NCBI GenBank assembly: GCA_903882965.1
Contig: CAIRZD010000407.1
Span: 1-42,610 of the forward strand
From: an uncultured Bacteroidota bacterium
GTDB lineage: Bacteria; Bacteroidota; Bacteroidia; Chitinophagales; Chitinophagaceae
Direction: 5' to 3'
Length of the DNA stretch: 42,610 bases
Shown: positions 7,108 through 36,351 of the stretch, one piece after another
Position numbering within the stretch: the first letter of the stretch is position 1
How the letters are laid out: each line of letters begins with the position of its first letter
The notes under the pieces: generated by a model
The model's input: only the letters and a program-made list of their open reading frames with translations
Databases searched by the model: none
Told to the model about the DNA's origin: nothing
Program-made: the position numbers and the translations under genes

Positions 7108-7123
7108 AATATTGAAAGACAAA

Positions 7124-20500: not shown

Positions 20501-23500
20501 TTGACCGTGATCGTAGTGGTGGCAATACATCCTGTTGTACCAAGTGTATAGATAATGTTTGCTGTACCCGCGGTGAGCCCCGTAACAATACCGGAAATGG
20601 GGTCTACTGACCCTATAGCGGGACTACTGCTGCTCCATGAGCCGCCTATTGTAGCATCACTTAATGTGGTTGTAAGGCCTATACACACATTTGTAGTACC
20701 CGTTATTGCTGCAACAGCACTAACCACAGTTACAGTGAGTGATGTGGCGCAGGTAGTAGGCAGTGTATAACTAATAACAGATGTGCCTGTCGAAAGGCTT
20801 GTAATAATACCTGACGAAGAACCAATTGTACCTACGCTTGTATTACTACTGCTCCATGTGCCTCCCGTCGGGGTATCGCTTAATCCGGATATAGAACCTA
20901 AGCATATGTTTGGAGCACCGCTAATAGTTGCGGGAGCAGGATTAATGGTTACAATAGCAGTTGAAATACAACCTGCTGATGTAACATAAGTAGCAGTGGC
21001 AGTGCCGCCGGACACGCCGGTAACGATACCGGTTAATGAGCCAATTGTTGCAATGGTTGACGTGCTGATATACCATGTACCACCGGATGACCCGTCGCTT
21101 AAACTAATCGTAGAGCCCGGGCAAACCGAATTAGGAGTTAAAAAACTTATAGCAGGTGGGTTTGGATTTACCGTTATAACAGCGGTAGTAATACAGCCCG
21201 TAGGTAGTGTGTAAGTAATAACAGCAGTGCCATTTGCATTTCCGGTGACAATCCCGGATATAGCATCAACAGAGGCCATAGAAGGATTACTGCTGCTCCA
21301 TGTGCCTGTAGCAGGTATAGAATTTAATGTTGTAGTTAGCCCAAGACAAACATTCAAAGGGCCGGTTATTGTGCCCGGTAATGGATTCACTGTAATTATT
21401 TGTGTGGCTGCACAACCTGTAGGTATTGTGTAGCTAATGGTAGATGTCCCCGCGATAAGACCGGTAAGGATACCTGTTGATCCTATAGATGCATTTGCAT
21501 TAGTGGTACTCCATGTACCTGTACCATCTGCGTCGCTGAAACTGATCGTAAGACCAAGACAAACCGTATCTGATATTCCGGTTATAGCAACCGGAAGCGG
21601 ATTGATCGTAATGATTTGTGTTGTTATGCAGCTTGTAGGCAGTGTATAGGTTATTGTAGCAGTAGCCGGGCCGGCCGCTATACCGGTAACAGCTCCTGTT
21701 GTTGAATTTACAGATACAGTAATATCACCAGTACTCCATGTGCCACCTCCTGCATCACTTAGTATGATCGTTGAGCCGGAGCAAACAGCACTTGATCCCA
21801 AAATATTTGTTGGTAAAGGATTTACGGTAAAAACAGATGTAGTGTTACAGCCTGTAGGTATGGAATAAGTAATATTGACAGTGCCGGAAGATGTGCCGGT
21901 GGTAATACACCCGGTGCTGCCAATGGTTGCAACCGTTGCATTACTAGTGCTCCATGTGCCGCCCGGCGTGAGATCTGTAAGGCATGTAGACAAACCAATA
22001 CAAACTTCAGGTGTGCCCGTAATTGGAACAGGTATCGGGTTGACTGTAATAGTTGTATTAGTGGTACAGCCGGTAGGCAGTGTGTAAGTGATCGTAACAG
22101 TGCTGGCAACCAGAACTCCGCTTCCACCTGTAACACAGCCTGAGGTGCCCCCAACCGTTGCAACAGCAGTATTGCTGCTGCTCCATGTGCCTCCTGTACT
22201 TGCATCAGTAAGGCAAAGTGTAGTACCTGCACATAATGGCGCGTTCCCACCCGAAATGCCGGAAGGCAGAGGGTTTACTGTAGTCGTTGTATATGCGGCG
22301 CAGCCGGTGGGTGCTATTAAATAAGTAATTGTAGCAGTACCTAAATTATTCCCTGTAATAACACCTGTGGTAGAGCCAATATCTGCAACAGTTGTATTGC
22401 TGCTGCTCCATGTGCCACCCGGTGTGACATCGCTAATGGTTGCCGTTAACCCGATACAAACTGCAGGCGAACCGAGTATTGCAGATAGAGGATTAACAGT
22501 AACGGGGATAGTGGCAATACAACCCGTAGGTAGTTGGTAAGTAATAGTTGGAATCCCAGCCGAAACCCCGGTGACTATGCCACCGGTACCTACTGTAGCT
22601 TGTAAATTACTACTGCTGAGCCATATCCCACCAGGTGTTTGGTCAGCTAGTGAGGTTGTTTGGGTAGCACAAACTACATTTATGCCGGTAATGTTATCCG
22701 GTAAAGGATTAACAGTAACAACAGTTGAAATGATACAGCCTGTAGGTAGTGTATAAGTAATACCAGTTGTACCTACTGAAAGGCCTGTAACAATACCATT
22801 AGTCCCAATGGTACCTATTGAAACATCGCTGCTGCTCCATGAGCCACCTGCTGTAGCATCGCTCAAGCTGGTTGTTAGGTTGAGGCAGACATTCTTGTTG
22901 CCGGAAATATTTGCCGGCAGCGGATTAACGGTAGAAATGACTGTTGTAATACAGCCTGTAGGCAATGTATAGGTGATTACTGATGTGCCGGCGAAAAGGC
23001 CGGTGACACAACCTGTACTTCCATTTATGCTTACATTGCCGTTACTGCTGCTCCATGTACCTAAGGGGGTAGGATCAGATAAGCAAATACCCAGGCCATT
23101 ACAAACCGCAATATTGCCGGTAATGCTTGAAGGTAAAGGATTGACCGTTAACACTACGCTTGATATAGTAGTTCCGCATGAGTTAATAACTTCGTATACA
23201 ATGTTTGTAGTACCACCGGCACTTCCGGTAGTAGTAACAACACCTGTCACAGGGTCTATTGTAGCTACCCCTGCATTACTGCTGCTCCAGCCGGTGCCGG
23301 AACCTACAGGGGTTGTATTGCTAAAAATTGTTGACCCCTGGTAACAAATGACCGCATTACCTGTAATAGCTGCCGCTGCTGTATCTACCTCTACAAATGA
23401 TGAGGTATCAGAGGCGCTGTAACATCCTGCGCCTGGGTATGTAACTGTTAATACATATTTTCCGCTTGCTGCAAGAGTGGATGCTGTAAGTGAAGTGGAG

Positions 23501-25110
23501 GAGGTAGTAGTTGAGGTACTATACCCATTTGGCCCGCTCCAGTTATACGATGATATTGTTCCTGCTCCGGTAGTGGCGCCGGCAGTTAATGTGATTGTAC
23601 TGCCGGTACATAACGGCGATGGGGTAGCTGTGATATTGGCTACTGATGGTGAGTCGTTAACGGTAACAAAAGACGATATGACCTGGTTGCTGGTACATCC
23701 TGCCCCGGGATATACAACCGTCAAACTGTAAATACCACTGGCGGCAATAGAGATCGGGGTGTATATTGAAGTGTCTGATGCAGTTACTGCTGTGTAGCCA
23801 TTAGGCCCTTGCCAGTTGTAAGTAGGTATTCCTATACCTGTGGCGCCACTACCAATTAATGTTAATGGATTTCCTACACATAAAACAGCAGGCGTAGCTG
23901 ATATACTTGCAACCGTAGGTGTGGGGTTAATGGTTAGTGCAGCCGCAGAGGAGGATGGTGTAGTAATACTGGTGCCACAAATATTTGTAAGCACACAGTA
24001 ATAGTAGTAAGTGCCCGGAGTAGTAGTAACAGGTGGGCCAGGTGTGTAATTTGAATTAGTAGCTCCCGATATGATAGTGCCGCCTGTATTTGTGTTGGTT
24101 GTATTGGTATACCATTGGTAGGTAAGGCCTGAACCGGTTGCACCTAAAAACAGAACCGGGGTGCTGCCAACACAGGCTAATGTATTTTGCGGAAGCAAAG
24201 AAATATTAGTAGGAACGTATAGGCAAACAGTATAATCTTCTGTTTCGCCATCTGTTGTATTGGGTAACATGGTGCAGGCATCAGATTGAACCATGGTTTC
24301 TGATATGCCATAACGCACGCGCATAGCTGTATAGCCCGGGGTAGCGCTCGCAGGGATGGTGATGGATTTAGATATAGTTGAACCTGTTGTTGCAACATTA
24401 CTTACAAGGAAAAACTCACCGGCATCCAACAAACTGCTGTTTTGGTTAAAATCAAACCACACACCTGCTCCATGAACACCCGGATTACCACCGCCGGTGC
24501 TTACACTTAAAGTGTAAGTATTGGCAATTGCAAGGTTTGTAGTTTGGCTGCCTGTGGGGAAGTAAAAAGAATATCCGCCTGTGCTGCAGCTGGAGCTATT
24601 ATTTAGTGTATTGACGGTAACATTGCTGATATAATCTGTTGCACAGGTCAGGTCATTAACAGGCGTGCATTGGCAAGTAGCACTGGGTGCAAGCAGGTTG
24701 GCAATTGAAGCCCCGGTCAATGTAGACCAGGCTGAACTGTAACATACCGATGTAGGTGATACAGAATCAACAGCCATTATCCTGAAATAATAACTGGCGC
24801 CGGCTGTGAGGCCGGTAAATGAATAAGACGTTGTTATAGAGCCTGTTTCAAACGGGCCGGCTATGATAGTAAAAAAACCAGGATCACTGGCTAATTCAAC
24901 TACATAATTTGTAACAGTACCTGATGGCGTATTCCAGTTAGCGAGGAATGAACTGCAACTAATATTAGTTGGCGAGGTTACAGTTACTACACCGGGCGAG
25001 GTGCACTGTGCTGTACTTTTACCTGGTTTTAATGCAAGCCCAACTAATAAAAGGCAAGTAGCGAAAAATTTCAAGTAACTGCAAATGCGGGAAGTGTAAA
25101 TTGAATTCAT
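14533..25110 (-). CDS. Giant T9SS-secreted multi-Ig-like adhesin (3525 residues)
   Basis: This is one uninterrupted 10.6-kb reading frame. Residues 1-35 are a signal peptide. A fibronectin type III-like domain occupies about 36-130, and a GEVED-type domain about 143-297 (GVWFDFNQN, GETEDYTVCLY). Ig/PKD-like domains occupy about 298-580. About 34 tandem modules of 70-76 residues then run from about 581 to 3072. Each follows the pattern ITG-x-VC, TLSD, GGTWSSSN, TGIVTG, AGTATITY, GC, close to bacterial Ig-like group 2 (BID_2). Nearly every module has two cysteines, suggesting one disulfide each. Further Ig-like domains lead to a T9SS sorting domain at about 3440-3525 (LRLVPNPNNGSFTVKG). It is likely a long surface stalk or adhesin. 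Two redox genes follow on the same strand. Confidence 0.92.
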   Translation of the reverse strand: MNSIYTSRICSYLKFFATCLLLVGLALKPGKSTAQCTSPGVVTVTSPTNISCSSFLANWNTPSGTVTNYVVELASDPGFFTIIAGPFETGSITTSYSFTGLTAGASYYFRIMAVDSVSPTSVCYSSAWSTLTGASIANLLAPSATCQCTPVNDLTCATDYISNVTVNTLNNSSSCSTGGYSFYFPTGSQTTNLAIANTYTLSVSTGGGNPGVHGAGVWFDFNQNSSLLDAGEFFLVSNVATTGSTISKSITIPASATPGYTAMRVRYGISETMVQSDACTMLPNTTDGETEDYTVCLYVPTNISLLPQNTLACVGSTPVLFLGATGSGLTYQWYTNTTNTNTGGTIISGATNSNYTPGPPVTTTPGTYYYYCVLTNICGTSITTPSSSAAALTINPTPTVASISATPAVLCVGNPLTLIGSGATGIGIPTYNWQGPNGYTAVTASDTSIYTPISIAASGIYSLTVVYPGAGCTSNQVISSFVTVNDSPSVANITATPSPLCTGSTITLTAGATTGAGTISSYNWSGPNGYSTSTTTSSTSLTASTLAASGKYVLTVTYPGAGCYSASDTSSFVEVDTAAAAITGNAVICYQGSTIFSNTTPVGSGTGWSSSNAGVATIDPVTGVVTTTGSAGGTTNIVYEVINSCGTTISSVVLTVNPLPSSITGNIAVCNGLGICLSDPTPLGTWSSSNGNVSINGSTGCVTGLFAGTSVITYTLPTGCITTVISTVNPLPANISGNKNVCLNLTTSLSDATAGGSWSSSDVSIGTIGTNGIVTGLSVGTTGITYTLPTGCIISTVVTVNPLPDNITGINVVCATQTTSLADQTPGGIWLSSSNLQATVGTGGIVTGVSAGIPTITYQLPTGCIATIPVTVNPLSAILGSPAVCIGLTATISDVTPGGTWSSSNTTVADIGSTTGVITGNNLGTATITYLIAPTGCAAYTTTTVNPLPSGISGGNAPLCAGTTLCLTDASTGGTWSSSNTAVATVGGTSGCVTGGSGVLVASTVTITYTLPTGCTTNTTITVNPIPVPITGTPEVCIGLSTCLTDLTPGGTWSTSNATVATIGSTGCITTGTSSGTVNITYSIPTGCNTTSVFTVNPLPTNILGSSAVCSGSTIILSDAGGGTWSTGDITVSVNSTTGAVTGIAAGPATATITYTLPTSCITTQIITINPLPVAITGISDTVCLGLTISFSDADGTGTWSTTNANASIGSTGILTGLIAGTSTISYTIPTGCAATQIITVNPLPGTITGPLNVCLGLTTTLNSIPATGTWSSSNPSMASVDAISGIVTGNANGTAVITYTLPTGCITTAVITVNPNPPAISFLTPNSVCPGSTISLSDGSSGGTWYISTSTIATIGSLTGIVTGVSGGTATATYVTSAGCISTAIVTINPAPATISGAPNICLGSISGLSDTPTGGTWSSSNTSVGTIGSSSGIITSLSTGTSVISYTLPTTCATSLTVTVVSAVAAITGTTNVCIGLTTTLSDATIGGSWSSSSPAIGSVDPISGIVTGLTAGTANIIYTLGTTGCIATTTITVNPLPGNILGPNNVCSGSTITLSDAPTGGAWSSSNTAIATIGSSSGIATGGIVGIPSTWISTYTLSTGCIATAVITVNPLPSAITGPNVVCSGTTIPLSDVSSGGTWVSSNTAVAIVGSSTGIVTGQGVSAGTATISYILPTGCYITTVVSVIVTINPITGTATNCPQFPINLNDATSGGTWSSSNTAVGTVSSTGIVTDITPGTATITYSLGGVCAVTKVVTFNTVPAITGNTDICYASTSNLHNTTLGGTWSSTNPTVATIGSSSGLVTSVSTGTTVISYILAGGCNTTTTVTIVSSLPNILGTLSVCKGLGTSLSDGVITGGTWTSSNTAIATIGSSSGLATGVNAGSATISYKLGTGCTSTAGITVNPNPAAISGPTAVCQSSSITANSITLSDGTPGGTWSASSVTLTSASTITTVTATSAGTYTVAYTLSATGCAAYTNITVNPTPASIAGPSGVCYLSGVVESDATGGGTWGSSNTSVVYVSAGATFGVALGTANITYQVATTGCAVTKVITVNPVPSGIVGIKTVCAGSTTTLSDALAGGTWISDDATVASINSFTGVLTGVSAGTANITYTSAAGCTTDTIVTVLETPGPILGTPAVCSGGTTTLSDTTAGGTWSSTTIIIDPAGNVTGNIVGTATFDTATIDYTTSNGCYSTINFYSNPFPAAITGTTSVCPGLTTVLSSPTTGGTWSSSNNSVATINGSTGVVTGISTGTAIITYINSSGCFVTTTVNVFSTVGPITASSSQVCVGLSLNLDDTSSGTWSVNNSNAIIGSVAGIITGESVGGVTATLTASSGCIATANFTVINSIPSITGTTFSVCPGFTITLSDATAGGNWSSSSPNISVGSATGVVTGINAGTATITYALGAGCTVTTTVTVNGQPITGITTICVGSSTTLTDVESGGTWSSTSSNVFVGSSSGIITGVISGPAPITYSSPLGCIITTTVSVLNYVPTLIASPSVLCVGLTSNLLDAYSGGTWSSSNISVASVGSNNGILTGIAAGTVTITYTIGTGCNTTSVLTVNPLSPILGNTTVCNSATTNLSDTTTGGTWTSSNADVTIGSSTGIVTAVTPGTATITYALSTGCSVTTTVTVNPIAPINGITSICNPGTTTLSDNVTGGTWSSSNTAVGTVDPNTGIVSSLSAGTTLITYTLLTGCTASTTVVVVSSLPAITGNTNDCIGAPSILSNAISGGTWSSNDITIATVDPISGSVTGVAADTTTISYMLGTGCTATTLVTINSLPAAITGSVFVCVGLTNTLVDDTTGGNWSSSNTSIASVGSTGIVTGLSAGMANITYATPAGCIATTVATVNPLPLAISGIINICPTSTTTLSDATTGGTWSSSNTGTGTIDPNTGVVTALAAGTSAITYTLPTGCIVTTTLNVVNTITPITGILKACTNTTTSLSDALAGGAWSASNSNASVDPVSGIVTGLITGTTSVVYTLGTGCSVSAVVTINPAPSAILGTAQVCLGAATTLSDITTPGTWSASNSNATIGSGTGLVHGVTVGIDTIKYTINNGCSITGTFTVNALPTAYLVNGGGSYCGGGIGVNIILDSSNTGINYTLYQAATSITTLPGTGDTVNFGPQTVAGAYTVLATNATTGCTSRMLDSAVVSITTPLIPLVNISTASDTVCAGTYTTFFATSVNGGTLPGYQWLVNGVSPGADSNHYSYIPVNGDVVSVILTSNAICVSPDTAITSIVMTVNNNKLPGVGISIFPGDTLCAGALATFSAVDSFGGTAPVFNWFKNSIYAGTGSTFSFTPYIPDNGDIIYCKMTSNYACVTTDTVSSSYIQLVIDSSLIPVITLNATPGITILQGQSDTITATVVNGGISPTFQWLVNGVPVSGDTTNVFISDTLSNNDSVTCIVRGSGECGLYTFNSAIIITDGKLNVQQITAGNSDLRLVPNPNNGSFTVKGTLATTLDEEVSVEITDMLGQVIYKNKIMAVGGRINEQIQLNSKLANGMYTLSLHAENENKVFHLVIEQ
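15893..23371 (-). repeat. Tandem array of about 34 BID_2 module repeats in the adhesin gene
   Basis: The DNA repeats with a period of about 210-230 bp; boundaries are approximate. Conserved blocks recur on the plus strand as versions of 'ctgctgctccatgtgcc', encoding GTWSSS. Unit lengths vary by a few codons, and copies differ at many synonymous sites, so the array is old and diverged rather than freshly expanded. The periodicity also produces a series of antisense open frames on the plus strand. Confidence 0.85.
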
Positions 25111-25368: not shown

Positions 25369-26280
25369 TCATTTTTTTGATACCAGTATGCCTCCATTAT
25401 GTGTGACCTCAAGTTTGTGTGGGACGCCTAATATGAGGGTATGATTTATTTCCTGGTGGCCTGCAGGGAAATTGAAACAAACAGGGTAGTCATATTCTTT
25501 TACCTTATCCCATATTATCTCTTCTATGGTTTGCCCGAAAGGTCGCTCGGTATCTTGCATTTCTGTGAAGCCGCCAATTATGAGTGCTTTGATATTGTCA
25601 AATTTGCCTGCACGTTTCAGGTTCAATAACATGCGGTCTGCATTATACAGGTATTCGCCGATGTCTTCAATAAAAAGAATTTTCCCGGCAGTATCAACTT
25701 CTGATACAGAACCGGTGAGATGTGCAAGTATAGCAAGATTACCGCCTGTTAAAATACCTTCTGCTGTTCCGTTTTTGTTAAACGGAGATGGTGGTGTCTG
25801 ATATTGCAGCGATCCGCCTGTAAGGCCTGTATACAATGTTGTAAGGTATGGCTCATTTTCGGTTTCAGGTTTAAAGGCGCCACACATAGGGCTGTGTAAA
25901 GATGCCATACCATTATGCGCCTGCAGGTGATTGTGCAGTACAGTAATATCACTAAATCCGCATATCCATTTTGGTTTTTGCAGGAAAGATGTGAAATCAA
26001 GCGCATCAATAATGCGGCTCATACCATAGCCGCCCCGGCCCATGAGTATGGCATCTATAGCAGGGTTGTCCATCATTTCCTGTAAATCTGCAAGCCGCTG
26101 CTCATCGGTACCTGAGAAATAAAAATGTTCTGTACCGATCGTTGTCCCAAGTTTCACTTTGAATCCCCATTTTTCCAATACTTTGACAGCGTAAGCAACC
26201 CGGTCGGTAGACACATAACCGGAAGGGCACGTGATACCAACAACAGAACCTTGTTTGAGGAATGGAGGATGTGAGGCCAT
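25369..26280 (-). CDS. LD-carboxypeptidase, peptidase family S66
   Basis: S66 enzymes remove the terminal D-alanine from tetrapeptide stems during murein recycling, or cleave related substrates such as microcin C7. The 303-residue protein has the family's catalytic elements. Ser110 lies in CGFSDIT as nucleophile, Glu205 in LFIEDIGE, and His275 in FPAGHQEINH completes the Ser-Glu-His triad. GRGGYGMSRI near residues 81-90 is also a family hallmark. There is no signal peptide, fitting a cytoplasmic recycling role. It is last in a leftward cluster, 45 bp after the Rieske gene, and may be co-transcribed with it. Confidence 0.9.
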   Translation of the reverse strand: MASHPPFLKQGSVVGITCPSGYVSTDRVAYAVKVLEKWGFKVKLGTTIGTEHFYFSGTDEQRLADLQEMMDNPAIDAILMGRGGYGMSRIIDALDFTSFLQKPKWICGFSDITVLHNHLQAHNGMASLHSPMCGAFKPETENEPYLTTLYTGLTGGSLQYQTPPSPFNKNGTAEGILTGGNLAILAHLTGSVSEVDTAGKILFIEDIGEYLYNADRMLLNLKRAGKFDNIKALIIGGFTEMQDTERPFGQTIEEIIWDKVKEYDYPVCFNFPAGHQEINHTLILGVPHKLEVTHNGGILVSKK

Positions 26281-26325
26281 TAATGTTTTTAAGGATACTA
26301 AAGTAATAAAAAACCCTTAACCGGC

Positions 26326-26649
26326 TTACTCCCGCAGACCTATAAATATTTCATCACCTCTGATCTCTACGGGATAAGTAAACAGTTTATAGCCTTCGCC
26401 GGTTGTGTTGCGGCCATTTGCGGGATCGAAACGGTATTTGTGGTCCGGGCAAACGATTCGCCCCAGGGGATCTAGCCAGCCTTCGCATAGTGGCGCACCT
26501 GCGTGCGGGCACAAGGCAGTGAAAGCATAGATGCCACTGCTTTTTTTCAGCAGGCCTATTCTTTTTTCACCAACAGTTACTTCTGTAAGTTTATTTTCTT
26601 CCATGCCGGAAGCCGTTATGTTTTCTATTTTATGCCAGGTAGGTAGCAT
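26326..26649 (-). CDS. Small Rieske [2Fe-2S] ferredoxin-like protein
   Basis: This 107-residue protein has one Rieske domain. The cluster ligands are C47-P-H49 in LCPHAGAPLCEGW and C67-P-D-H70 in VCPDHKYRFD, the two-Cys two-His pattern. There is no membrane anchor or signal peptide, so it is probably a soluble electron carrier or the ferredoxin part of an oxygenase or nitrite-reductase-like system; it resembles NirD-like small Rieske proteins. No oxygenase subunit is nearby. It lies between the TadA-like deaminase (20 bp) and the LD-carboxypeptidase (45 bp) on the same strand. Its partner is unknown. Confidence 0.86.
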   Translation of the reverse strand: MLPTWHKIENITASGMEENKLTEVTVGEKRIGLLKKSSGIYAFTALCPHAGAPLCEGWLDPLGRIVCPDHKYRFDPANGRNTTGEGYKLFTYPVEIRGDEIFIGLRE

Positions 26650-26669
26650 CCGGTTGATTGATTAGGTGA

Positions 26670-27113
26670 TCATCTTCTTGCTGCGAAAAAATCTTTCATC
26701 AGTTGTGCACATTCATCTGCAAGCACACCCTTTACAAGTTCTGCTTTTGGATGAAAAGGAAAATTGTCGCCGGTAGTTTTGTGATAGCCGTTTTTTATAT
26801 CTTCTGCACCATACACTATGCGTGCTATCTTAGACCAGAAGATAGCGCCGCAACACATAAGGCATGGTTCTACGGTCACGTATAATACAGCGCTGGGTAA
26901 ATATTTACTGCCCAGTGTGTTGAATGCGGATGTAAGCGCAATCATTTCGGCATGAGCGGTGCTATCATTGAGTTGCTCCACCTGGTTGTGCCCCCGGGCA
27001 ATGATCTTATTGTCCCAAACCACAACAGCGCCCACAGGTACTTCGCCGGCCTCATATGCCAGTTTAGCCTGTTTCAGCGCTTCTTTCATAAAATGTACGT
27101 CATCCAATTCCAT
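26670..27113 (-). CDS. tadA: tRNA-specific adenosine deaminase-like protein (TadA)
   Basis: TadA deaminates the wobble adenosine of tRNA-Arg(ACG) to inosine. The 147-residue protein has the zinc and catalytic signature of the cytidine/deoxycytidylate deaminase superfamily. H54-A-E56 lies in TAHAEMIAL, with Glu56 as proton shuttle, and PC84LMC87 lies in VEPCLMCCGAI. VPVGAVVVWDNKIIARGHN is the typical N-terminal strand region. The related nucleoside deaminases, including guanine deaminases, share these motifs, so a free-base deaminase remains possible; the acidic DD-x-H start and the VKGVL tail fit either. The ROK kinase gene ends 9 bp upstream. Confidence 0.8.
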   Translation of the reverse strand: MELDDVHFMKEALKQAKLAYEAGEVPVGAVVVWDNKIIARGHNQVEQLNDSTAHAEMIALTSAFNTLGSKYLPSAVLYVTVEPCLMCCGAIFWSKIARIVYGAEDIKNGYHKTTGDNFPFHPKAELVKGVLADECAQLMKDFFAARR

Positions 27114-27122
27114 AAGTAGTTT

Positions 27123-28064
27123 TTACCAGGCCAGTGCACTTGCTCCTAATATTGCTGCATCTGCATCCGGTAAAGCAGACCGAAGTAATGATACTTTATT
27201 CTGATAAATGTTCAGCATATTTTCTTCCATGTATTTATGTACAGGCCCTAGTAACAATTCTCCGGCTTGTGCAAGCCCACCAAAAAATATGATTGCTTCA
27301 GGAGAGGTAATGGCAACCGTATCGGCTAATACCTGTCCCAATATTTTGGCGGTATAATCAAATACTGCCAGCGCGAAGATATCTCCCGCAGCGGCAGCTT
27401 CATGTATCATCTTTGCAGTTATATTTTCTTTGTTGGCACGGAGTATGGTGTCATCGTTTCGCTGTTCCAGCCACTCGTGTGCAGTGCGTACTACGCCTGT
27501 GGCAGAGGTATAGGCCTCCAGGCAGCCGTGGCGTCCGCAGCCACATTTTCTGCCATCCCTTACCGCTATCACATGGCCCAGTTCTCCGGCAAAACCATCA
27601 TGGCCGTATATCACCTGCCCGTTTGCCACAAAGCCGCTGCCAACACCTGTGCCGAGCGTGACGACTATAAAATCTTTCATTCCTTTTGCAGCGCCATACA
27701 TCATTTCGCCTATTGCCGCTGCGTTTGCATCATTGGTAAGGGTTGCTTTTAATCCAAACGTTTCACTTATCATACGCACAATAGGTATCACACCTTTCCA
27801 TGGAAGGTTTGGTGCAAAGACTATCTCGCCGGTAAAAAAATTTCCGTTTGGTGCGCCCACCCCTACACCATTTATATTTTGCCTGCCTGCTTTTTCTATT
27901 AGCGGACGTAAGGCATATTCCAAAGCTATGAAGTAGTCTTGCGGTGTTTTGTGCCCTATGGTAGGCATGCTCCCTTTTGACAGGATCTCACCACGCCTGT
28001 TTACAATGCCGAATGATGTGCCGGTGCCGCCAATATCAATGCCCAGCGCCAATGCTTGCGTCAT
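27123..28064 (-). CDS. ROK-family sugar kinase (glucokinase-like)
   Basis: I start at the ATG at 28064 because it places ALGIDIGGTGTSFG right after the initiator, as in other ROK proteins. The longer frame to 28127 would add an implausible N-terminus inside the transporter gene. The 313-residue protein has the ATP-binding DIGGT motif (residues 10-14), catalytic Asp112 in TNDANAAAIGE, and the ROK zinc site His164 with C174-G-C176-G-R-H-G-C181. The absence of a helix-turn-helix domain argues for a kinase rather than a repressor; the sugar is probably a hexose such as glucose. Its start overlaps the end of the upstream sugar-transporter gene by 29 bp, coupling uptake with phosphorylation. Confidence 0.88.
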   Translation of the reverse strand: MTQALALGIDIGGTGTSFGIVNRRGEILSKGSMPTIGHKTPQDYFIALEYALRPLIEKAGRQNINGVGVGAPNGNFFTGEIVFAPNLPWKGVIPIVRMISETFGLKATLTNDANAAAIGEMMYGAAKGMKDFIVVTLGTGVGSGFVANGQVIYGHDGFAGELGHVIAVRDGRKCGCGRHGCLEAYTSATGVVRTAHEWLEQRNDDTILRANKENITAKMIHEAAAAGDIFALAVFDYTAKILGQVLADTVAITSPEAIIFFGGLAQAGELLLGPVHKYMEENMLNIYQNKVSLLRSALPDADAAILGASALAW

Positions 28065-29691
28065 AGTCAATACCTTGTTTTTGTAAAATACGGCGTGCTG
28101 CAAAACCAAACCATGCAAGGTAGGCAAACCCTATTACGGGAATCCAGTAAGATTGGTGTATGCCTATTGCTGCAATGTCTGCGAGTTTGCCTTGTAAAGG
28201 CGGTATAATAGCGCCACCCAATATCATCATGATAAGGAATGCTGAACCCTGTGCGGTATACTTTCCGAGCCCTGCGATAGACAATGCGAAAATGCATGGC
28301 CACATAATGGAGCAAAACAGCCCGCCGCTAAGGAACGCATAGGTGGCTATTTTGCCCGTAGTGAATATACCAACGAGCATAAACGCTACGCCTAACAATG
28401 AAAATACCATAAGCGTTTTTGCAGGTTTATCTTGTGTTGCATAGAATGCAATGCCCTGTATAATGATACAAACTATGTAGCCGTAAAATGGTGTGACATC
28501 GTTTTGTGCAATGGAGTTAACACCCAGCACTACGAGGAAGGCGATAACCGGCACCAGGAATATAAGAATGGTTTTAACGCTGCCACCGGGCTCAAATATT
28601 TTTATAGAGCCGGTCCAGCGGCCTATCATAAGGCTGCCCCAATACACAGAAATGAAGGGGGCTACCTGTGACGATGTATACCCGCCAAAATCTTTAAGTT
28701 CCAAAAGTGCACCCATATTACTCTGTATGGTTACCTCCACTCCTACATAAGTGAATATGGCCAGCATGCCCAGTATGAGTTGTGGGTATTGCATGGCACC
28801 CCAGCCGGTCGCATTTTTCTTAGCGCTTAGCAGGGATACCAGCAAAGTGCCTACGATCAATATAAGCCCTGCTACGAGCCATTTAAACCGGTCCATCTGC
28901 ACAGATTCTATTATGCCGGGATCAGTGCTTACCACCATGTAACTCCTGAATACCGGCACAAAAACCATTATTAAGAAAAGGGTCATAATGCCCAATGCCA
29001 TCAAAGCTTTGGGCGATTGTTCAGACTGCGTTTCATACTTACCTGCAGGTAATTTTTTAGAAAAAAAGAATAATGCGGCAGCCATAATAAACAAAGCTCC
29101 TACGCAGGCATAAAGTATGGTCACTTTATCAAGGCCCAGCGAATTGATCTGGTCATCTTTTGCAATGGTAGTGCCAAACAGTGCAAGCGCTACAATGATA
29201 GGGCCGATGGCTGTGCCGAATGAATTGATACCACCACCTAATGTGATGCGGTGTGCTCCCGTTTCAGGTGGGCCGAGCAATGTGGCAAAAGGATTAGCAG
29301 CTGTTTGTTGTAAAGAGAAACCAAGTGCAACGGCAAACAGCCCTGCAAGCATACCTGGAAATGTATTTGCATTTACGGCAAGGATCATTATTCCTGCACC
29401 AATTGCAGAGAACAACAGGCCATAAACGATACTGTTTTTAAATCCCCATCGTGCTACCACATCTTTTTTAAATACCGATGCAATAAAATATAAGGTTAGT
29501 GCCCCGAGGTAATAGGCGAGGTAAAATGCAAAGTCTATCAGCTGCGACTGGAACTGATCCAGCTTAAAATAGTGTTTACAAAATGGGATAAAAACACCGT
29601 TGCCCGCGGCAATAAAGCCCCAGAAAAAAAACACGGTTACCAACGTAGAAAGCGCTCCTGAATTTGATGACCGTTTTTGTGTATCGCTCAT
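28036..29691 (-). CDS. Sugar MFS transporter, FHS/FucP-like
   Basis: This 551-residue inner-membrane protein resembles the fucose-galactose-glucose:H+ symporter (FHS) branch of the major facilitator superfamily. TLVTVFFFWGFIAAGNGVFIP and the SLQQTAANPFATLLGPPET region match FucP-like permeases, and about twelve or more hydrophobic helices are spaced through the protein. It is longer than E. coli FucP (438 residues), mainly through a central expansion around residues 220-300. It probably imports a hexose in symport with protons. Its 3' end overlaps the ROK kinase gene start, a direct link between uptake and phosphorylation. A TATGTTTG box lies upstream. Confidence 0.87.
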   Translation of the reverse strand: MSDTQKRSSNSGALSTLVTVFFFWGFIAAGNGVFIPFCKHYFKLDQFQSQLIDFAFYLAYYLGALTLYFIASVFKKDVVARWGFKNSIVYGLLFSAIGAGIMILAVNANTFPGMLAGLFAVALGFSLQQTAANPFATLLGPPETGAHRITLGGGINSFGTAIGPIIVALALFGTTIAKDDQINSLGLDKVTILYACVGALFIMAAALFFFSKKLPAGKYETQSEQSPKALMALGIMTLFLIMVFVPVFRSYMVVSTDPGIIESVQMDRFKWLVAGLILIVGTLLVSLLSAKKNATGWGAMQYPQLILGMLAIFTYVGVEVTIQSNMGALLELKDFGGYTSSQVAPFISVYWGSLMIGRWTGSIKIFEPGGSVKTILIFLVPVIAFLVVLGVNSIAQNDVTPFYGYIVCIIIQGIAFYATQDKPAKTLMVFSLLGVAFMLVGIFTTGKIATYAFLSGGLFCSIMWPCIFALSIAGLGKYTAQGSAFLIMMILGGAIIPPLQGKLADIAAIGIHQSYWIPVIGFAYLAWFGFAARRILQKQGIDYDASIGAGH

Positions 29692-29819: not shown

Positions 29820-30650
29820 TTAGTCTTCCAGCTTGGTGCCGGTTTGGGTAAAGGTTACCAACCGTTTTTTGTACAATGCGCCCAGTGTCATTTTAAAAGT
29901 TTTTTTGCTCATCCCGAAAGCTGCATAGATTTCTTCAGGCGATGATTTATCATTTAGCGGCATGTAACCGCTATTATCTTTAAGGTAGCCTAAAACACGC
30001 TCTTCCTCGCCTAGTACTTTTGTATATCCCTTGGTGCCGGGAGAGACATCTATTTTGTTATCCGGCCTTATATGCTTTATAAATCCTTTTAGTTTTTCGC
30101 CGATCTCCAGCTCGCGGAATACTTCATTAAAATGCAGTAACCCCATGTGCTTGCTGTTGATGATCACCTTGTAGCCAATGTCTGTTTTCTGGTACACTAC
30201 CAGGTCTACCGGGTCAAGCTCAGCTACTGTGAGTTCATAATTACTCAGGTATTTGTCTATCTTTTCGCTAGCCGTAACACGGCCGGTTTGCTCATCTATA
30301 AAGAGCCGCACCAGTCGCCGGTCGCCGGGCTTCATTCTTTTTTCCTGCAGGGAAATAGGTACGAATACGTCTTTCATAATACCCCATTTCAGGAAGGCCC
30401 CGGAAGGGTTTACATCAGCTACTTCAAGCATGGCTATTTCACCCACCACAGCATACGGCTTATCGGTAGTGGCAATAAGCCTGCCATCATTATCGTGATA
30501 GATAAATACGTTGATCTCATCATCAACTTTCAGGTCTTTTGGTACATATCGTTTTGGCAGAAGTATCTCATCTGCGCCGCCATCAAGATACATACCAAAA
30601 TCTACCTCTTTGGCTACTTTAAGTGTATTGTATTGCCCTACGTTTACCAT
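29820..30650 (-). CDS. cvfB: S1-domain RNA-binding protein, CvfB-like
   Basis: This 276-residue cytoplasmic protein resembles CvfB, a conserved RNA-binding protein with several S1-type OB folds and a C-terminal winged-helix domain. Visible S1-like segments start near residues 1 (GQYNTLKVAKEVDFGMYL), 65 (VGEIAMLEVADVNPSGAFLKWG) and 145 (VYQKTDIGYKVIINSKHMGLLH). The C-terminus (ISPEEIYAAFGMSKK-type, here SSPEEIYAAFGMSKKTFK) is the winged-helix part. CvfB in Staphylococcus affects virulence gene expression, but its role in Bacteroidota is not established. It lies 70 bp after the second GldN-like gene on the same strand and is followed by a hairpin. Confidence 0.85.
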   Translation of the reverse strand: MVNVGQYNTLKVAKEVDFGMYLDGGADEILLPKRYVPKDLKVDDEINVFIYHDNDGRLIATTDKPYAVVGEIAMLEVADVNPSGAFLKWGIMKDVFVPISLQEKRMKPGDRRLVRLFIDEQTGRVTASEKIDKYLSNYELTVAELDPVDLVVYQKTDIGYKVIINSKHMGLLHFNEVFRELEIGEKLKGFIKHIRPDNKIDVSPGTKGYTKVLGEEERVLGYLKDNSGYMPLNDKSSPEEIYAAFGMSKKTFKMTLGALYKKRLVTFTQTGTKLED

Positions 30651-30720: not shown

Positions 30721-31902
30721 TCATTTCTGCACCTCAGGCTTTACATCACCTAAAAAGTAATCATGCCATATATGCCCTGCCAGAGTATTGTCGGGATTGT
30801 ATTGTTCGTACTTCGCTATTATATTGTGTATATCATTATAGCGCAACCAGAATAAAGGTTTGTTCCCGATACGATAACAATTTCCGCAAAATATCTCCAT
30901 CAACGGGCCTATTCCTTTGATTTGTATATGTGTTTTCCCGCTATTCATATCAAAAGACCATTCTTCCAGTATTTTGTATTTGTTTATCTCAATATTTTCA
31001 TGCCTGATTTCCAACGTTTCCACATTGGCCACAGGATCTACAACTGTGAATGTATCCATAAACGTTATTATCTTCTGTAAGGAATTATAAGATAGTTTCG
31101 TTGTCAAGCTATTATTATCACATGGATATGCATTTAGTTTACCGGATTTTATTGCTGCTGAAATCACTTTATATATAGATGTGTCTTCACTTGCATCTGT
31201 TAAGTGATGGCTGATATTATCATCTTTTTGGGCAAAGTCCACTAACCGTGTTGCTTTTTTCTTCCATACTTCACCTGTAGTGCTGTCATTTGAAAAGTAG
31301 TCGCGCCATATATGCCCTGCAATTGTATTGCCGGGGTTGTATTGTTCATATCTTGCTATTATACTGCGGGCATCATTATATTTTACCCAAAACATAGCCT
31401 GCACACCACGAAAGGCGCCACCTTCATCATATATTTCCCTGATCGGTGCAATCCCTGTTATTTGTATTTCTGTTCGTCCGGTATGTGGGTCAAAGGTCCA
31501 TTCTTCCAGTAGCCTATACTTATGGATCGAAGAAAAATCAAAATTCCTTTTCTCAAAATACCCTGCTTCTGTTTTAGGGTAAGCTTCAGTAAGGGTATCT
31601 ACCTCAACCCCGAAGATTTTTGTGATTTCAGGAATAGTAATTTGATTATTAAAATTATTATCAGAATTACTATATACATTTAGTTTCCCAACTCTTGCTT
31701 GAGCAACTAATAATTCCAATAAGGTTTTATCGGATATTCCATCTTTATGATGATGTTTTTTATTGCTTTCATTTGATGCAATGTCTATTACACGTGCCAC
31801 TCTTTTATGCCATATCACGCTTGCATTTTCACTCTGCCCATCAGCTCTCAATACCATAACTAACAGCGAATACAATATCCCCACAAAACTTGATCTAATC
31901 AT
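30721..31902 (-). CDS. Doubled GldN/PorN-like secreted protein, copy B
   Basis: This is a 393-residue exported protein with a signal peptide (hydrophobic to about residue 20, cleavage near DGQ). It has two successive modules, about 25-200 and 205-393. Each begins with W-x-K-K/R-x-x-R-V/L-hydrophobic-D, has a 'SGKLNAYPCD'-like middle and a L-L-E-E-W-(S/T)-F-D segment. The ends are GIAPIREIYDEGG or GIGPLMEIF, then FW-x-(K/R)YND and AGHIW-x-DYF. This order matches GldN/PorN, the gliding motility and T9SS periplasmic-ring protein, which normally has one such module. Copy A starts upstream and ends only 7 bp before this gene. It may be a T9SS accessory or a degenerate duplicate; function is inferred. 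Confidence 0.72.
   Translation of the reverse strand: MIRSSFVGILYSLLVMVLRADGQSENASVIWHKRVARVIDIASNESNKKHHHKDGISDKTLLELLVAQARVGKLNVYSNSDNNFNNQITIPEITKIFGVEVDTLTEAYPKTEAGYFEKRNFDFSSIHKYRLLEEWTFDPHTGRTEIQITGIAPIREIYDEGGAFRGVQAMFWVKYNDARSIIARYEQYNPGNTIAGHIWRDYFSNDSTTGEVWKKKATRLVDFAQKDDNISHHLTDASEDTSIYKVISAAIKSGKLNAYPCDNNSLTTKLSYNSLQKIITFMDTFTVVDPVANVETLEIRHENIEINKYKILEEWSFDMNSGKTHIQIKGIGPLMEIFCGNCYRIGNKPLFWLRYNDIHNIIAKYEQYNPDNTLAGHIWHDYFLGDVKPEVQK
31130..31545 (-). repeat. Near-identical patch shared with the paralogous gene, copy B side
   Basis: This block of copy B aligns with about 32330-32745 in copy A at an offset of about 1.2 kb. In a 194-base part (from about 31321 versus 32519) I count about 12 mismatches, while the genes' outer parts are strongly diverged. 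The limits are approximate. Confidence 0.7.
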
Positions 31903-31909
31903 ACAACGA

Positions 31910-33103
31910 TCATTTTACCAGTTCCGGCTTTACATCACTTAAAAAGTAATCATGCCATACATGGCCTGCCAGGGTATTGTCAGGGTGGTATTGTTCATAC
32001 CTTGAAGCTATATCCTGTATATCATTATAACGGAGCCAGAACATAAGTTGCGTTTCGCTGCCCGATTCATCATGCTGCACATCTATTGTTGGCCCAATAC
32101 CTTTTATTTGAATCTCTGTCTTTCCTGTATGTGGGTCTAAAGTCCATTCTTCCAGTATTCTATATTTGTTTATGGTGTAATATTCAAAAATGAGGTCGTG
32201 AATTTCCCATGTTTGCTGGTTAGTTATAGGATCTACAATAACAATTGTATCCGGCTTACCCCATCGTTTTTCTTTTAGTGCTTCATAAGATATTTTACTT
32301 GCCAGATTTTTATCATCGCTTGCATATGCACCAAGCTTACCTGATTTTATAGCTGCTGTAATCATTTTATAGATAGAAGTATCCTCACTTGCATCAGTTA
32401 AGTGATGGCTGATATTATCGTCTTTTTGGGCAAAGTCCACTAACCGTGTTGCTTTTTTCTTCCATACTCCACCGGCACTGCTGTCATTTGAAAAATAGTC
32501 GTGCCATATATGCCCTGCAATTGTATTGCCGGGGCTGTTTTGTTCATATCTTGCTATTATACTACGAGCATCATTATATTTTACCCAAAACATAGCCTGC
32601 ACACCACGAAAGGCGCCACCTTCATCATATATTTCCCTGATTGGTGCTATGCCTGTTATTTGTACTTCGGTTCTTCCGGTATGCGGGTCAAAAGTCCATT
32701 CTTCCAGTAGCCGGTATTTATGAATTGCACTATAGTCACAATCTTTACGTACGAGTTTTGTCATTTCTTTCCCGGTCACCGGGTCTACAACTACTATAGT
32801 ATCTACCTTTGAAACGATCATATTTTTCAACTCTGCTGCTGATAACTTGGTTGTAAAGCTGCAATCGAAGGTACTGTAGGCATCCAGCTTTCCTGATTTA
32901 ATGTCCTCGGTCATCATTTCTAACAACGTGGGCTTTGGCTTTGCATCCTTGGTATGATGGGTCACGCCATTCTCTTTTTCAGACAGGTCTATCACTCTCC
33001 CCACTTTTTTCTTCCAGGTACCATTATTTTGTGCAGATGCAACGCCGCATATTGCACAAAATAGTGCGACAAAGACTACCTTATAAAAATCGGATGTTTT
33101 CAT
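31910..33103 (-). CDS. Doubled GldN/PorN-like secreted protein, copy A
   Basis: This 397-residue paralogue of copy B starts with a signal peptide (about residues 1-24, cleavage after ASAQ). Module 1 (about 28-205) runs from WKKKVGRVIDLSEKE through DTIVVVDPVTGKE and YRLLEEWTFDPHTGRTEV to AGHIWHDYF. Module 2 (about 210-397) repeats the series. The DTIVVxDP segment between the two conserved parts also occurs in Chitinophagales GldN as I recall it. A block spanning the end of module 1 and start of module 2 is almost identical to copy B in DNA and protein, while the outer ends have diverged. No gldK, gldL or gldM is adjacent, so it does not belong to the core T9SS operon. Confidence 0.73.
   Translation of the reverse strand: MKTSDFYKVVFVALFCAICGVASAQNNGTWKKKVGRVIDLSEKENGVTHHTKDAKPKPTLLEMMTEDIKSGKLDAYSTFDCSFTTKLSAAELKNMIVSKVDTIVVVDPVTGKEMTKLVRKDCDYSAIHKYRLLEEWTFDPHTGRTEVQITGIAPIREIYDEGGAFRGVQAMFWVKYNDARSIIARYEQNSPGNTIAGHIWHDYFSNDSSAGGVWKKKATRLVDFAQKDDNISHHLTDASEDTSIYKMITAAIKSGKLGAYASDDKNLASKISYEALKEKRWGKPDTIVIVDPITNQQTWEIHDLIFEYYTINKYRILEEWTLDPHTGKTEIQIKGIGPTIDVQHDESGSETQLMFWLRYNDIQDIASRYEQYHPDNTLAGHVWHDYFLSDVKPELVK
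32330..32745 (-). repeat. Near-identical patch shared with the paralogous gene, copy A side
   Basis: This is the partner of 31130-31545. It covers the end of GldN-like module 1 and the start of module 2 in copy A. The sharp contrast between this patch and its flanks is what gene conversion, or strong constraint on the patch, would leave. Confidence 0.7.
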
Positions 33104-33183
33104 ACTTTTAATCTTTTTATAAATTTAATCAGCAATTAAATAAAACATAAAAACATTGTACTCTAAGTAAATAAAATGAGTAC

Positions 33184-34245
33184 TTAGTGCAACCTCACTC
33201 TCGGATCGATCCATGCATATAGCAGGTCGGTAAAAAGATTGATGATAATAAAGATAAATGATGTGAGCAATACCGCGCCCATTACCAGCGGAAAATCAAA
33301 TTTATCAAGCCCGTCAACGGTTATTTTCCCCACACCCTTCCACCCGAAAATATACTCCACAAAAAACGAACCCGCCAGCAACTCAGCCAGCCAACCGGAT
33401 ACCGCTGTAATAACCGGGTTAAGGGCATTGGGCAAGGCGTGGCGGAAAACTATTTTTGTTTTTGAGAGCCCCTTGGCATATGCCGTACGGATATAATCCT
33501 GCGAAAGTGTATCGAGTAATGCGCTGCGGGTAAGTTGGGTAATAATAGCCAGTGGCCTTATGCCAAGTGCAAAAGCAGGGAGTATAAGATTTTTCAGCGC
33601 GAGGTGTCTTCCGGTTATTGGGTCATATTCCCACAGGCTACCGGTCATATTCAGTCCGGTGTAGCTGTGCAGCAAATAACCAAATACAAAAGCGACCAGT
33701 AGCCCCGCAAAAAATGATGGCATCGAAATCCCCGCCACACTGGCGGCAATGGCAGAGGTATCCAGCCATGTATTTTTCTTAAGTGCCGCCAATATCCCCA
33801 GGAGTATGCCGAAGAAAGTAGCAAAGGTCATTGCAGTTACCGCAAGAATAACTGTGCCAGGCAACGCCTCACCAAGTATGGCATTCACTTGCCTTTTTGT
33901 ACGGTACGAACGGCCCAGGTATGGCCATTTTAATACCAGCGCTTTGTGGGCTGTAACAGGCATTAGCTGGGTATAATGATACAATTGTTTTGTAGTACTG
34001 TCCCGGTTGTTAATGCTCACAGGGAGCAGATCGTTGAGATAAAGAAAGTAGCGGGAGAATAGCGGCTTATCAAGATTGAGTTCATGCCTGGCATTCTCTA
34101 TAGATGCGAGATCGCTACGCTGGCCCATAGTGAGGCGTGCGGGGTCAGCAGGCAATACATTGAAAAGAAAAAACACCAATGTAACCACTCCCCACAATAC
34201 CAGCAGGCTATAAAGCGCACGATCAAGAAAATAGCGAACAAGCAT
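33184..34245 (-). CDS. Peptide/nickel-type ABC transporter permease (DppB-like)
   Basis: This 353-residue inner-membrane protein has the DppB/OppB layout. The first helix near residues 9-30 is followed by the LPADPARLTMGQR-type loop, and five more helices cluster from about residue 130. The cytoplasmic EAA loop is visible as YIRTAYAKGLSKTKIVFRHALPN, which docks on the ATPase. The C-terminal VEYIFGWKGVGKITVDGL and AWIDPRVR also match. It should form a channel with a DppC-type permease and two ATPases, but none of these nor a binding protein is in the window. The periplasmic loop at about 60-110 is longer than in enteric DppB. It is divergent from a GNAT gene. Confidence 0.88.
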   Translation of the reverse strand: MLVRYFLDRALYSLLVLWGVVTLVFFLFNVLPADPARLTMGQRSDLASIENARHELNLDKPLFSRYFLYLNDLLPVSINNRDSTTKQLYHYTQLMPVTAHKALVLKWPYLGRSYRTKRQVNAILGEALPGTVILAVTAMTFATFFGILLGILAALKKNTWLDTSAIAASVAGISMPSFFAGLLVAFVFGYLLHSYTGLNMTGSLWEYDPITGRHLALKNLILPAFALGIRPLAIITQLTRSALLDTLSQDYIRTAYAKGLSKTKIVFRHALPNALNPVITAVSGWLAELLAGSFFVEYIFGWKGVGKITVDGLDKFDFPLVMGAVLLTSFIFIIINLFTDLLYAWIDPRVRLH

Positions 34246-34874: not shown

Positions 34875-35333
34875 TTAAAGATTAAACTCGATCCTGAACT
34901 CTGTGCCTTGCCCCACCGCACTCTCAACATTTATTTTACCTCCCAGCATTTCTACTTGTGTCTTCACCATATATAACCCTAACCCTTTCCCTTCTACATG
35001 AAAATGAAAACGTTTATACAGGCCAAACAAGTCATCCCCTATTTTATTCAGATCCACGCCAATACCATTGTCCTTAAATGTAAGTATGAGTTTTTGTTCC
35101 CGCACCTCGCTTTTTATTTTGATCACGGGATCTGCATTTGCTTGCCGGTATTTGATGCTATTTGAGATCAGGTTACTAAATATATTTGCGAGGTAATTAT
35201 GCAGCGTATAAATATTGTCAATTACGGAGAAGTCGGTTTCAATAATAAATTTAATATTGTTGAATTCCCCCGACATGATTTTCTCTATCTCACGAACCAG
35301 TTTTGGAAAAAAAAACGATTTCCCTTTTTTCAT
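34875..35333 (-). CDS. Histidine kinase ATPase domain (C-terminal fragment after frameshift)
   Basis: This reading frame holds the HATPase_c domain of a sensor kinase. The N box is NLISNSIKYR, G1 is DNGIGVDLNKIG, and G2 is GKGLGLYMVKTQVEMLGG, ending EFRIEFNL. It lacks sensor and phosphoacceptor domains. The codons after 35333 read KKGKSFFFPKLVREIEK. Removing one T from the T9 run at 35307-35315 (minus strand) would fuse this frame with the upstream kinase gene as EIVFFPKLVREIEK, a natural linker. It is therefore the back end of one kinase of about 491 residues, not a separate gene. The internal ATG at 35333 lies in an overlap and is an unlikely true start. Confidence 0.82.
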   Translation of the reverse strand: MKKGKSFFFPKLVREIEKIMSGEFNNIKFIIETDFSVIDNIYTLHNYLANIFSNLISNSIKYRQANADPVIKIKSEVREQKLILTFKDNGIGVDLNKIGDDLFGLYKRFHFHVEGKGLGLYMVKTQVEMLGGKINVESAVGQGTEFRIEFNL

Positions 35334-36351
35334 TCATCCCCGTTTTAAATCGAAGTATATCATTGAGGTCTCTTATCACACCATCCAGCCGCATTGCAGA
35401 TTGGGATATACCCATAACGACCTCCTGTTTTTCATTATCATTTAGGTCAAATTCAGAAATAACATCTGCAAGGCCTATCAGGCTTGCTACCGGCGCTCGC
35501 AGGTTATGAGAAACTATGAATGTAAATTGCTCCAGTTCATTATTCCTTTTTATCAGGTCATTGGCAATCTCTTCTCTTTGCAATTCGGCTTTCCATAGAT
35601 CTGTTATATCGCGTATTATGGACATTATGGTCTCTATTTTACCATCCTTATCGGTCAGGTAAGAGTTATGCCAGCGACAGTACAACACCTTACCATCTTT
35701 TGTGTAATTTCTGTTTGCTATTGGGCCTTTTTCCTGTGTATTATCACTTGCCAGCAGTAGATTCTCGGTTACAGTATTTACATCGTCCTTATAAATCAGG
35801 AATTCACTGACCCTCTTGCCAAGCGCTTCTTCTTCAGTCCAACCGAAAAGGTCTTTTGCTCTCTTGCTCCAAAAGGTAACTTTCAGGTCATTATCATATT
35901 CAATAACTGCAAGCGGGCTGTTGTTAATATGATAATTGAGTCTCTCTTGATTTTTTTTGATCGCATTTTCGGCATTCACACGTTCTGATATATCGATGCC
36001 CATGCCTATTATGCATATTTTCCCCTCATAATTCACAACCCTTCCATTAAAATAATAGGGGATTATTTTGCCGTGTTTTGTAATAGTTTCAATCTCGATC
36101 TCAGCACTACCTTCTTCAAAGGCCTTACTAATGGCATTTGAGATACGGGCGTGATCCTTGGGGTCAAAAAAATTAAGCGGGCTTAGTTCTTTAATTTCAG
36201 CAGCAGAGTATCCCGAAACTTTTTCAAAATTTTTATTCCACCGGAGATATTTGCCACTTTGATCCTGTAAATAGAAAATACCTGGCAGACTATTGATAAC
36301 GAGGTCGGATATTTCCTTTTCATTTAAGATCTCAATATCTGCAGCTTTCAT
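35290..36351 (-). CDS. PAS-PAS sensor histidine kinase (N-terminal part, frameshifted)
   Basis: This 353-residue frame has two PAS domains at about 15-125 and 140-255. These are followed by a HisKA dimerisation and phosphoacceptor domain with His282 in FIVSHNLRAPVAS, the predicted phosphorylation site. No transmembrane segment is apparent, so it probably senses a cytoplasmic signal such as redox state or a small ligand. The frame ends early, after NDILRFKTGMNEKREIVFFSKTGS. The ATPase domain continues in the next frame, so the product as encoded would lack kinase activity. No response regulator gene is adjacent. Confidence 0.82.
   Translation of the reverse strand: MKAADIEILNEKEISDLVINSLPGIFYLQDQSGKYLRWNKNFEKVSGYSAAEIKELSPLNFFDPKDHARISNAISKAFEEGSAEIEIETITKHGKIIPYYFNGRVVNYEGKICIIGMGIDISERVNAENAIKKNQERLNYHINNSPLAVIEYDNDLKVTFWSKRAKDLFGWTEEEALGKRVSEFLIYKDDVNTVTENLLLASDNTQEKGPIANRNYTKDGKVLYCRWHNSYLTDKDGKIETIMSIIRDITDLWKAELQREEIANDLIKRNNELEQFTFIVSHNLRAPVASLIGLADVISEFDLNDNEKQEVVMGISQSAMRLDGVIRDLNDILRFKTGMNEKREIVFFSKTGS
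35307..35315 (-). other. Frameshift site: nine-base homopolymer in the histidine kinase gene
   Basis: Nine A on the plus strand (T9 in the coding sense). Eight T would give one continuous kinase frame through EIVFFPKLVREIE. The extra base could be a sequencing or assembly error, a real mutation, or a slippery site for phase variation. Confidence 0.8.

Follow-up and report, generated by a model that had tools for sequence, protein, structure and literature searches.

Two adjacent genes each encode two GldN core modules

The window analysed here is a stretch of 42,610 nucleotides from contig CAIRZD010000407.1 of an uncultured Bacteroidota bacterium of the family Chitinophagaceae, whose genome probably comes from a lake, going by the sample names. 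The original prediction placed two adjacent genes 7 bp apart in this window. An ORF check confirmed both as intact open reading frames with that gap and supplied their orientation, which the prediction had left out: g2 and g1 both lie on the minus strand. The coordinates of the genes, their modules and their conserved neighbors are collected in Table 1. With regard to possible horizontal transfer, the GC content of g2 and g1 is lower than that of the direct neighbors, yet it stays inside the window range or at its lower limit. A short inverted repeat (AGTACTC/GAGTAC; 33158-33184, minus strand) is located between the permease gene and g2 and touches the end of the permease gene.

Table 1. Genes, modules and shared tract at the GldN array of the window.
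Feature	Coordinates	Strand	Remarks
cvfB-like gene, downstream of array	29820..30650	-	S1 domains, CvfB winged helix; conserved neighbor
g1, exported protein with two GldN core modules	30721..31902	-	393 aa
g1 second module	30724..31272	-	PF19841 E 4e-28
g1 first module and export signal	31273..31902	-	PF19841 E 2e-32
g2, exported protein with two GldN core modules	31910..33103	-	397 aa; transcribed first
g2 second module	31913..32470	-	PF19841 E 2.3e-26
g2 first module and export signal	32471..33103	-	PF19841 E 1.5e-34
Near-identical tract shared with g1, across the module joint; approximate place in g2	32385..32712	-	
ABC transporter permease, upstream of array	33184..34245	-	BPD_transp_1; conserved neighbor in one subgroup

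GldN is the sole Pfam family above the cut-off in the whole g2 and g1 proteins. The PF19841 profile matches two stretches in each protein, with whole-protein E values of 3.7e-61 for g2 and 8.6e-60 for g1. Each of the four modules was also cut out and searched singly, a check proposed with the original prediction, and all four match with E values of 2.3e-26 to 1.5e-34. The homology of the modules to GldN is certain, and the claim of two GldN/PorN-like modules per protein and four at the locus holds. The motifs quoted for these modules fit the first modules best, as in WHKRVARVID at the start of g1; variants of them, for example ILEEWTLDPHTGK, occur in the second modules. Scored singly against TIGR03523, the modules reach 46-64 bits, below the equivalog cut-off of 85.9. 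The whole proteins exceed the cut-off (g2, 105 bits; g1, 114 bits) because the scores of two modules sum. A whole-protein GldN profile score can thus pass an equivalog cut-off though no single module does, and such scores call for caution. The signal peptide claimed for each protein was judged by eye from a hydrophobic N terminus, with an ASAQ motif in g2 and a less clear site in g1; an N-terminal helix in the AlphaFold2 model of g2 also fits an export signal. A type A sorting tail (TIGR04183) was not detected in g2 or g1 in an ncbifam scan up to E 1.

Canonical gld genes lie elsewhere in the genome

The absence of adjacent gldK, gldL and gldM genes, as originally described, extends to the whole window: searches found no gldM or gldK match, and the ORF list contains no gldL. 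The neighbors of g2 and g1 are the ABC permease and cvfB genes, and not a gldKLMN cluster. The source genome has 10 GldN matches. A separate canonical gldN, another point raised with the prediction, is present on contig C276, where gldK, gldL, gldM and gldN stand in a row as a complete cluster and GldN scores 174.9 bits with TIGR03523. Contig C1 carries gldK-, gldL- and gldM-like genes, and contigs C366 and C304 carry two gldN genes of a second type. These data indicate that most or all of a second gldKLMN set is present, split over contigs. Another two-module GldN gene is found on C495 (9132-10397), and C327 holds a GldN remnant near BlaI, M56 and GldM-D4-like genes.

T9SS cargo genes had been noted nearby. 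Four proteins with type A tails (TIGR04183) are indeed encoded in the window, but other genes separate them from the array. The nearest, 5.6 kb away, encodes a 3525-aa protein (14533-25110, minus strand), and the other three are at 4264-5712, 7112-9466 and 9513-10697.

The g2 model has the PorN core fold and the ring-anchoring parts are absent

The AlphaFold2 model of g2 was compared with known structures, as the original prediction had suggested. Both halves match PorN and the model has the PorN core fold; the clear matches are PorN structures only. In the PorKN ring, the PorN N-terminal helix (25-37) fits into PorK, and the C-terminal helix together with a loop carrying W278 anchors PorN to PorK (PMC12421860; ring contacts also in PMC12635249). 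PorN residues E235 and N236 form a PorN-PorN contact and A241 cross-links to PorM (PMC12421860; PMC12635249). The core of g2 and g1 starts 29 residues from the start codon, directly behind the export signal, and upstream extension of the two open frames adds at most 7 and 4 codons. Alignments place the end of the core at about PorN residue 232, and in both proteins it is followed by a tail of 10 residues and the stop codon. Therefore, equivalents of the N-terminal helix, the C-terminal arm, E235/N236 and A241 are absent. Neither a PorN-type N-terminal helix (25-37) nor a C-terminal helix and loop with W278 was found in g2 or g1.

The short tail is a property of the wider group. Across the fetched sets, the tail after the core is 7-18 residues long (mostly 10) in the short proteins, not counting a MORN fusion and one protein truncated at the end of a contig, compared to at least 50 residues in 25 canonical GldN rows, which represent 24 genes with G036 counted twice. 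A W..Y/F tail motif occurs in 25/25 canonical rows, 7/8 second-set rows, 5/32 rows of a third GldN class and 1/34 short rows. The sole short row with the motif is the MORN fusion, and the count among short proteins with a tail of their own is 0/32. Two core loops that face PorK are retained in the g2 and g1 alignment, and the equivalent of PorN D220, D202 of g2, is invariant across 22 aligned rows, so some contact with PorK may persist. The short modules end before the position of A241, the residue that cross-links to PorM, and this makes a GldM-type contact less likely.

These features bear on the claim that the locus encodes a T9SS component. GldN/PorN is a T9SS ring subunit and, in recent work, also part of the track (PMC12635249). 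The g2 and g1 proteins share with it the core fold, the motifs, predicted export and the PF19841 match of all four modules. They differ in having two modules per chain and no adjacent gldKLM genes, and they depart from ring subunits on four features: the single-module TIGR03523 score, the N-terminal helix, the C-terminal arm and the gene cluster. Because both elements that fix PorN on PorK, the N-terminal helix and the C-terminal arm, are absent, g2 and g1 are probably not ring subunits. The claim of a T9SS component is therefore not borne out by modules that lack the PorK-anchoring arms and score 46-64 bits each against a cut-off of 85.9. GldO of Flavobacterium johnsoniae, a full-length protein encoded beside gldN, provides the model for a different view. 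In this alternative, g2 and g1 would be variant ring or gliding-track subunits, and the two covalently linked modules of a chain would occupy adjacent PorN sites of the GldK ring or track. GldO, a paralogue that coexists with canonical gldN, participates in the ring complex (PMC10202324), and the common fold, the PorK-facing loops and D202 agree with such a role. This idea is unlikely given the missing helix, arm and E235/N236 and A241 equivalents, a gldK that is not adjacent, and the two gldN types kept in the source genome. Participation of GldO in the complex is also what sets it apart from the g2 and g1 proteins as we read them.

Short GldN modules form a clade seen in one genus

In a tree of 110 modules, in which the bootstrap had not settled, the short modules form one clade of 45 rows with support of 99/91. 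The clade is separate from the third GldN class and from the second gldN type, and it falls on the canonical-gldN side of the tree. Since that split is weak (79/53), descent of the clade from canonical gldN of the gldKLMN type is only likely on the basis of the tree. Short GldN was found in 24/35 genomes of one genus, and two-module genes were found in 11/35 (15 genes: three in the source genome and two each in G007 and G802); these counts take in matches at E up to 1e-20 and fetched loci and possibly miss weaker modules. Five of the 24 genomes (G797, G798, G801, G803 and G804) were classed by length and tail rather than by the tree. G014, where the second gene is divided between two contig ends, is possibly another two-module genome, which would bring the count to 12.

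Outside the genus, short GldN was not detected among the matches listed for 396 genomes of the order (165 genera; matches from about 114 bits upward) and 395 genomes of the phylum, all of which are full length. Sampled genomes of other genera of the family mostly have one match at E<=1e-20, and at least 10 have none. Three candidates were rejected. The 530-aa frame in G152 and the 403-aa frame in G025, considered as short or two-module GldN outside the genus, are both full-length single GldN genes, and the 206-aa frame in G106 belongs to a canonical gene that the contig end truncates.

Conservation and evolution of the array

The short genes are located upstream of cvfB on the same strand in 16/24 genomes, separated from it by no more than two ORFs longer than 110 aa. 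One subgroup has the ABC permease on the far side of the array; in another, cytochrome-c-like and/or redoxin genes usually stand there. The arrays upstream of cvfB hold 1-4 GldN modules. One module is present in G012 and G804, two separate single-module genes in G004, G011 and G019, and one two-module gene in G005 and G797. A single-module gene accompanies a two-module gene in G001, G010, G024, G801, G802 and G803, with a MORN fusion in addition in G018. Two two-module genes were found in the window only; the array of G014 is cut. The module count varies among the arrays, and the window pair represents the largest all-fused form seen of the locus. In G018, a GldN-like module is joined to MORN repeats at L154 (5544-7667) and L068 (9707-11068), with 13 and 5 stretches, respectively.

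In the 110-module tree, the first half of g2 is sister to that of g1 (97/96). Their second halves pair likewise (100/96), with the G005 second half next (100/96). First halves pair with first and second with second, so fusion of two modules likely came before duplication of the whole gene, as far as tree topology can tell. A tract of 328 aligned bases is 93.9% identical between g2 and g1, compared to 58% nucleotide identity outside it, which points to recent gene conversion or partial duplication. The tract covers parts of both halves and may itself help to pair the g2 and g1 halves in the trees. The six modules of the window and G005 form one clade (96/88) in the 110-module tree and not in a 49-row tree, where holding them together gives p-AU 0.22. 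The second halves of the window and G005 group at 100/96 in both trees, and the fusion is likely older than the split between the two. A single origin of all fusions was tried in the 49-row tree and set aside, with p-AU of 0.038 for keeping all 11 first halves together and 0.11 for all 11 second halves; several fusions are suggested by these topologies. The dN/dS ratios (NG86) were 0.06-0.14 in eight between-species comparisons, with two further comparisons giving no value, and 0.28 for g2 versus g1, with dS largely saturated. The short two-module genes are under purifying selection. The g2/g1 locus is real, conserved and under selection.

Relatives of the modules are joined to or lie beside M56 and BlaI

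In BlaR1, the sensor domain follows the M56 membrane part. Two relatives have a short GldN module behind an M56 membrane part, at the place of the sensor domain. One ORF of G015 (L067 6964-8364) combines Peptidase_M56 (E 1.5e-10) with a short GldN module (E 7.1e-36). G802 has a corresponding M56 and GldN pair with the M56 N-terminal part in another frame; in the stretch that is open, GldN is the sole Pfam match. A BlaI gene is nearby in both, identified by PF03965 (E 5.8e-29) in G802 and by similarity in G015, and a small secreted protein similar to GldM D4 adjoins the M56-GldN genes in both. BlaI, the D4-like protein and M56-GldN occur in a row at L067 4528-8364 and L155 4864-7247, which belong to two species; the L067 row includes a second M56 gene. 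In hhalign, a joint profile of the D4-like proteins from C327 of the source genome (G000), G015 and G802 aligns with GldM D4 over its C-terminal half, with a probability of 96.5 and an E value of 7.7e-10 that applies to a single pair. Singly, the C327 protein gives a Pfam value of 0.028, below the cut-off, and the G015 and G802 proteins give none. With phmmer, the C327 and G802 proteins match GldM (5e-7 and 1.6e-7), and the G015 protein is linked only to the C327 one. G021 and G022 have a single-module short GldN beside BlaI and M56. In G006, a short GldN gene is oriented divergently to the genes of two proteins that weakly resemble GldM (3e-6 and 9e-6), one with a Pfam value of 0.0063, below the cut-off, and the other with none.

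Solo GldN genes of the third class lie near a sigma-factor-like gene at seven loci (L087, L092, L095, L097, L100, L104 and L111), an assignment made by profile in L095 and by eye in the other six; the gene that follows may encode an anti-sigma factor. Solo GldM-similar proteins are encoded at L119 4990-5712, L165 4924-5643 and 5700-6788, L166 2147-2842 and L164 5368-6111, with no GldL or GldK match in the fetched stretches. GldN cores thus recur near signalling genes, and the two may act jointly.

A palindrome just before the BlaI start in L013, L067, L070, L071 and L155 is exact in four of the five and has one base changed in the fifth. It is likely BlaI's own operator. In the source genome the exact palindrome occurs at BlaI only, and 26 further sites match with 1-2 mismatches, including the BlaI site itself read on the opposite strand, compared with 121 for a reversed control. 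Regulation of the g2/g1 array by BlaI was considered and rejected: the palindrome was not found upstream of the array, and a two-mismatch match at C407:30706-30721, in the gap before cvfB, is taken as chance. The window differs from the BlaR1/M56 and BlaI systems in that g2 and g1 have no M56 membrane part in the chain or cluster and no BlaI or M56 gene adjoins them; no BlaI, M56 or GldM-D4-like gene was found at the window. As the array has neither a BlaI or M56 neighbor nor the palindrome, a signalling role for g2 and g1 would be carried over from four relatives. A search of mostly open-access literature returned no paper on GldN with BlaR1, none on GldN-like fusions among the matches listed, and one genome report on GldM with M56 in Bacteroidetes.

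Possible functions of g2 and g1

We read g2 and g1 as exported periplasmic proteins with two GldN cores each, members of a genus-limited clade, that work outside the ring as sensors or adaptors, and we give this reading a probability of about 40%. It draws on the observed homology, one predicted fold, the missing arms, the clade, the synteny and the joining of M56 to GldN in relatives. From these we infer the periplasmic location, a binding partner and a signalling role. Reuse of the GldN core as a free periplasmic sensor or adaptor is a tentative idea, somewhat short of even odds. The core would retain a protein-binding surface, freed from the ring, and could bind a GldM-D4-type domain or another T9SS or envelope protein. 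Through such binding it might monitor the secretion motor or the state of the envelope, or modulate either of them, and two modules per chain in two chains per locus would make a multivalent or multi-specific binder.

The regulator proposed as an alternative to a T9SS component has some support from the relatives with short GldN joined to or beside BlaI and M56. In a more specific and rather doubtful version, the GldM-D4/GldN contact would be reused as a signalling switch, with, in some species of the genus, an M56 receptor carrying a GldN sensor and a secreted D4-like ligand; the window proteins would be free multivalent members that sense the motor. PorN is known to touch the D4 domain of GldM/PorM in the motor (PMC12421860) and D4-like secreted proteins adjoin the M56-GldN genes, but no D4-like protein is encoded in the window. 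Together, an arm-less GldN clade in tandem arrays and two-module, MORN and M56-receptor fusions suggest a second use of the fold. If GldN cores sense the secretion motor, they would offer a handle on how these bacteria tell whether their secretion system is running.

Besides its binding to PorW, PorN reportedly binds cargo tails (PMC8754138), which offers other possible partners for g2 and g1. A periplasmic T9SS cargo adaptor or chaperone, in which the GldN core would hold cargo tails or dock PorW/SprE off the ring, could make use of them. PorM and PorN are both said to bind cargo tails (PMC8754138), four type A cargo proteins are encoded in the window, and a TPR protein, exported as judged by eye, follows the array in G001, G004 and G019. 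We consider this role improbable, about as much so as ring membership: cargo tails are general, short GldN was seen in one genus only, and the cargo genes of the window do not adjoin g2 and g1. Less probable still is a decoy or cap, in which the modules would attach to GldM or GldK without allowing the ring to grow, thereby restricting its assembly or stopping the motor. A retained core with lost assembly arms is what a dominant-negative part would look like, and solo GldM-like proteins also occur in the genus, but loss of the arms may abolish binding too. An assembly artefact or decaying duplicates, which a draft assembly of 508 contigs and the near-identical tract might evoke, is very improbable and mostly refuted by syntenic arrays in 15 other genomes, two intact ORFs, ~58% nucleotide identity outside the tract and dN/dS well below 1.

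Other genes in the window

Downstream of cvfB, a block at 25369-29691 (minus strand) encodes an MFS-like transporter (below the Pfam cut-off), a ROK kinase and an LD-carboxypeptidase, together with deaminase-like and Rieske-like genes assigned by eye. Several relatives share much of the block, which possibly functions in cell-wall recycling. The two overlapping ORFs at 34875-35333 and 35290-36351 (minus strand) are parts of one PAS histidine kinase, PAS and HisKA and then HATPase. Its counterpart in G005 is one ORF of 491 aa, and the split is a frameshift or an assembly error.
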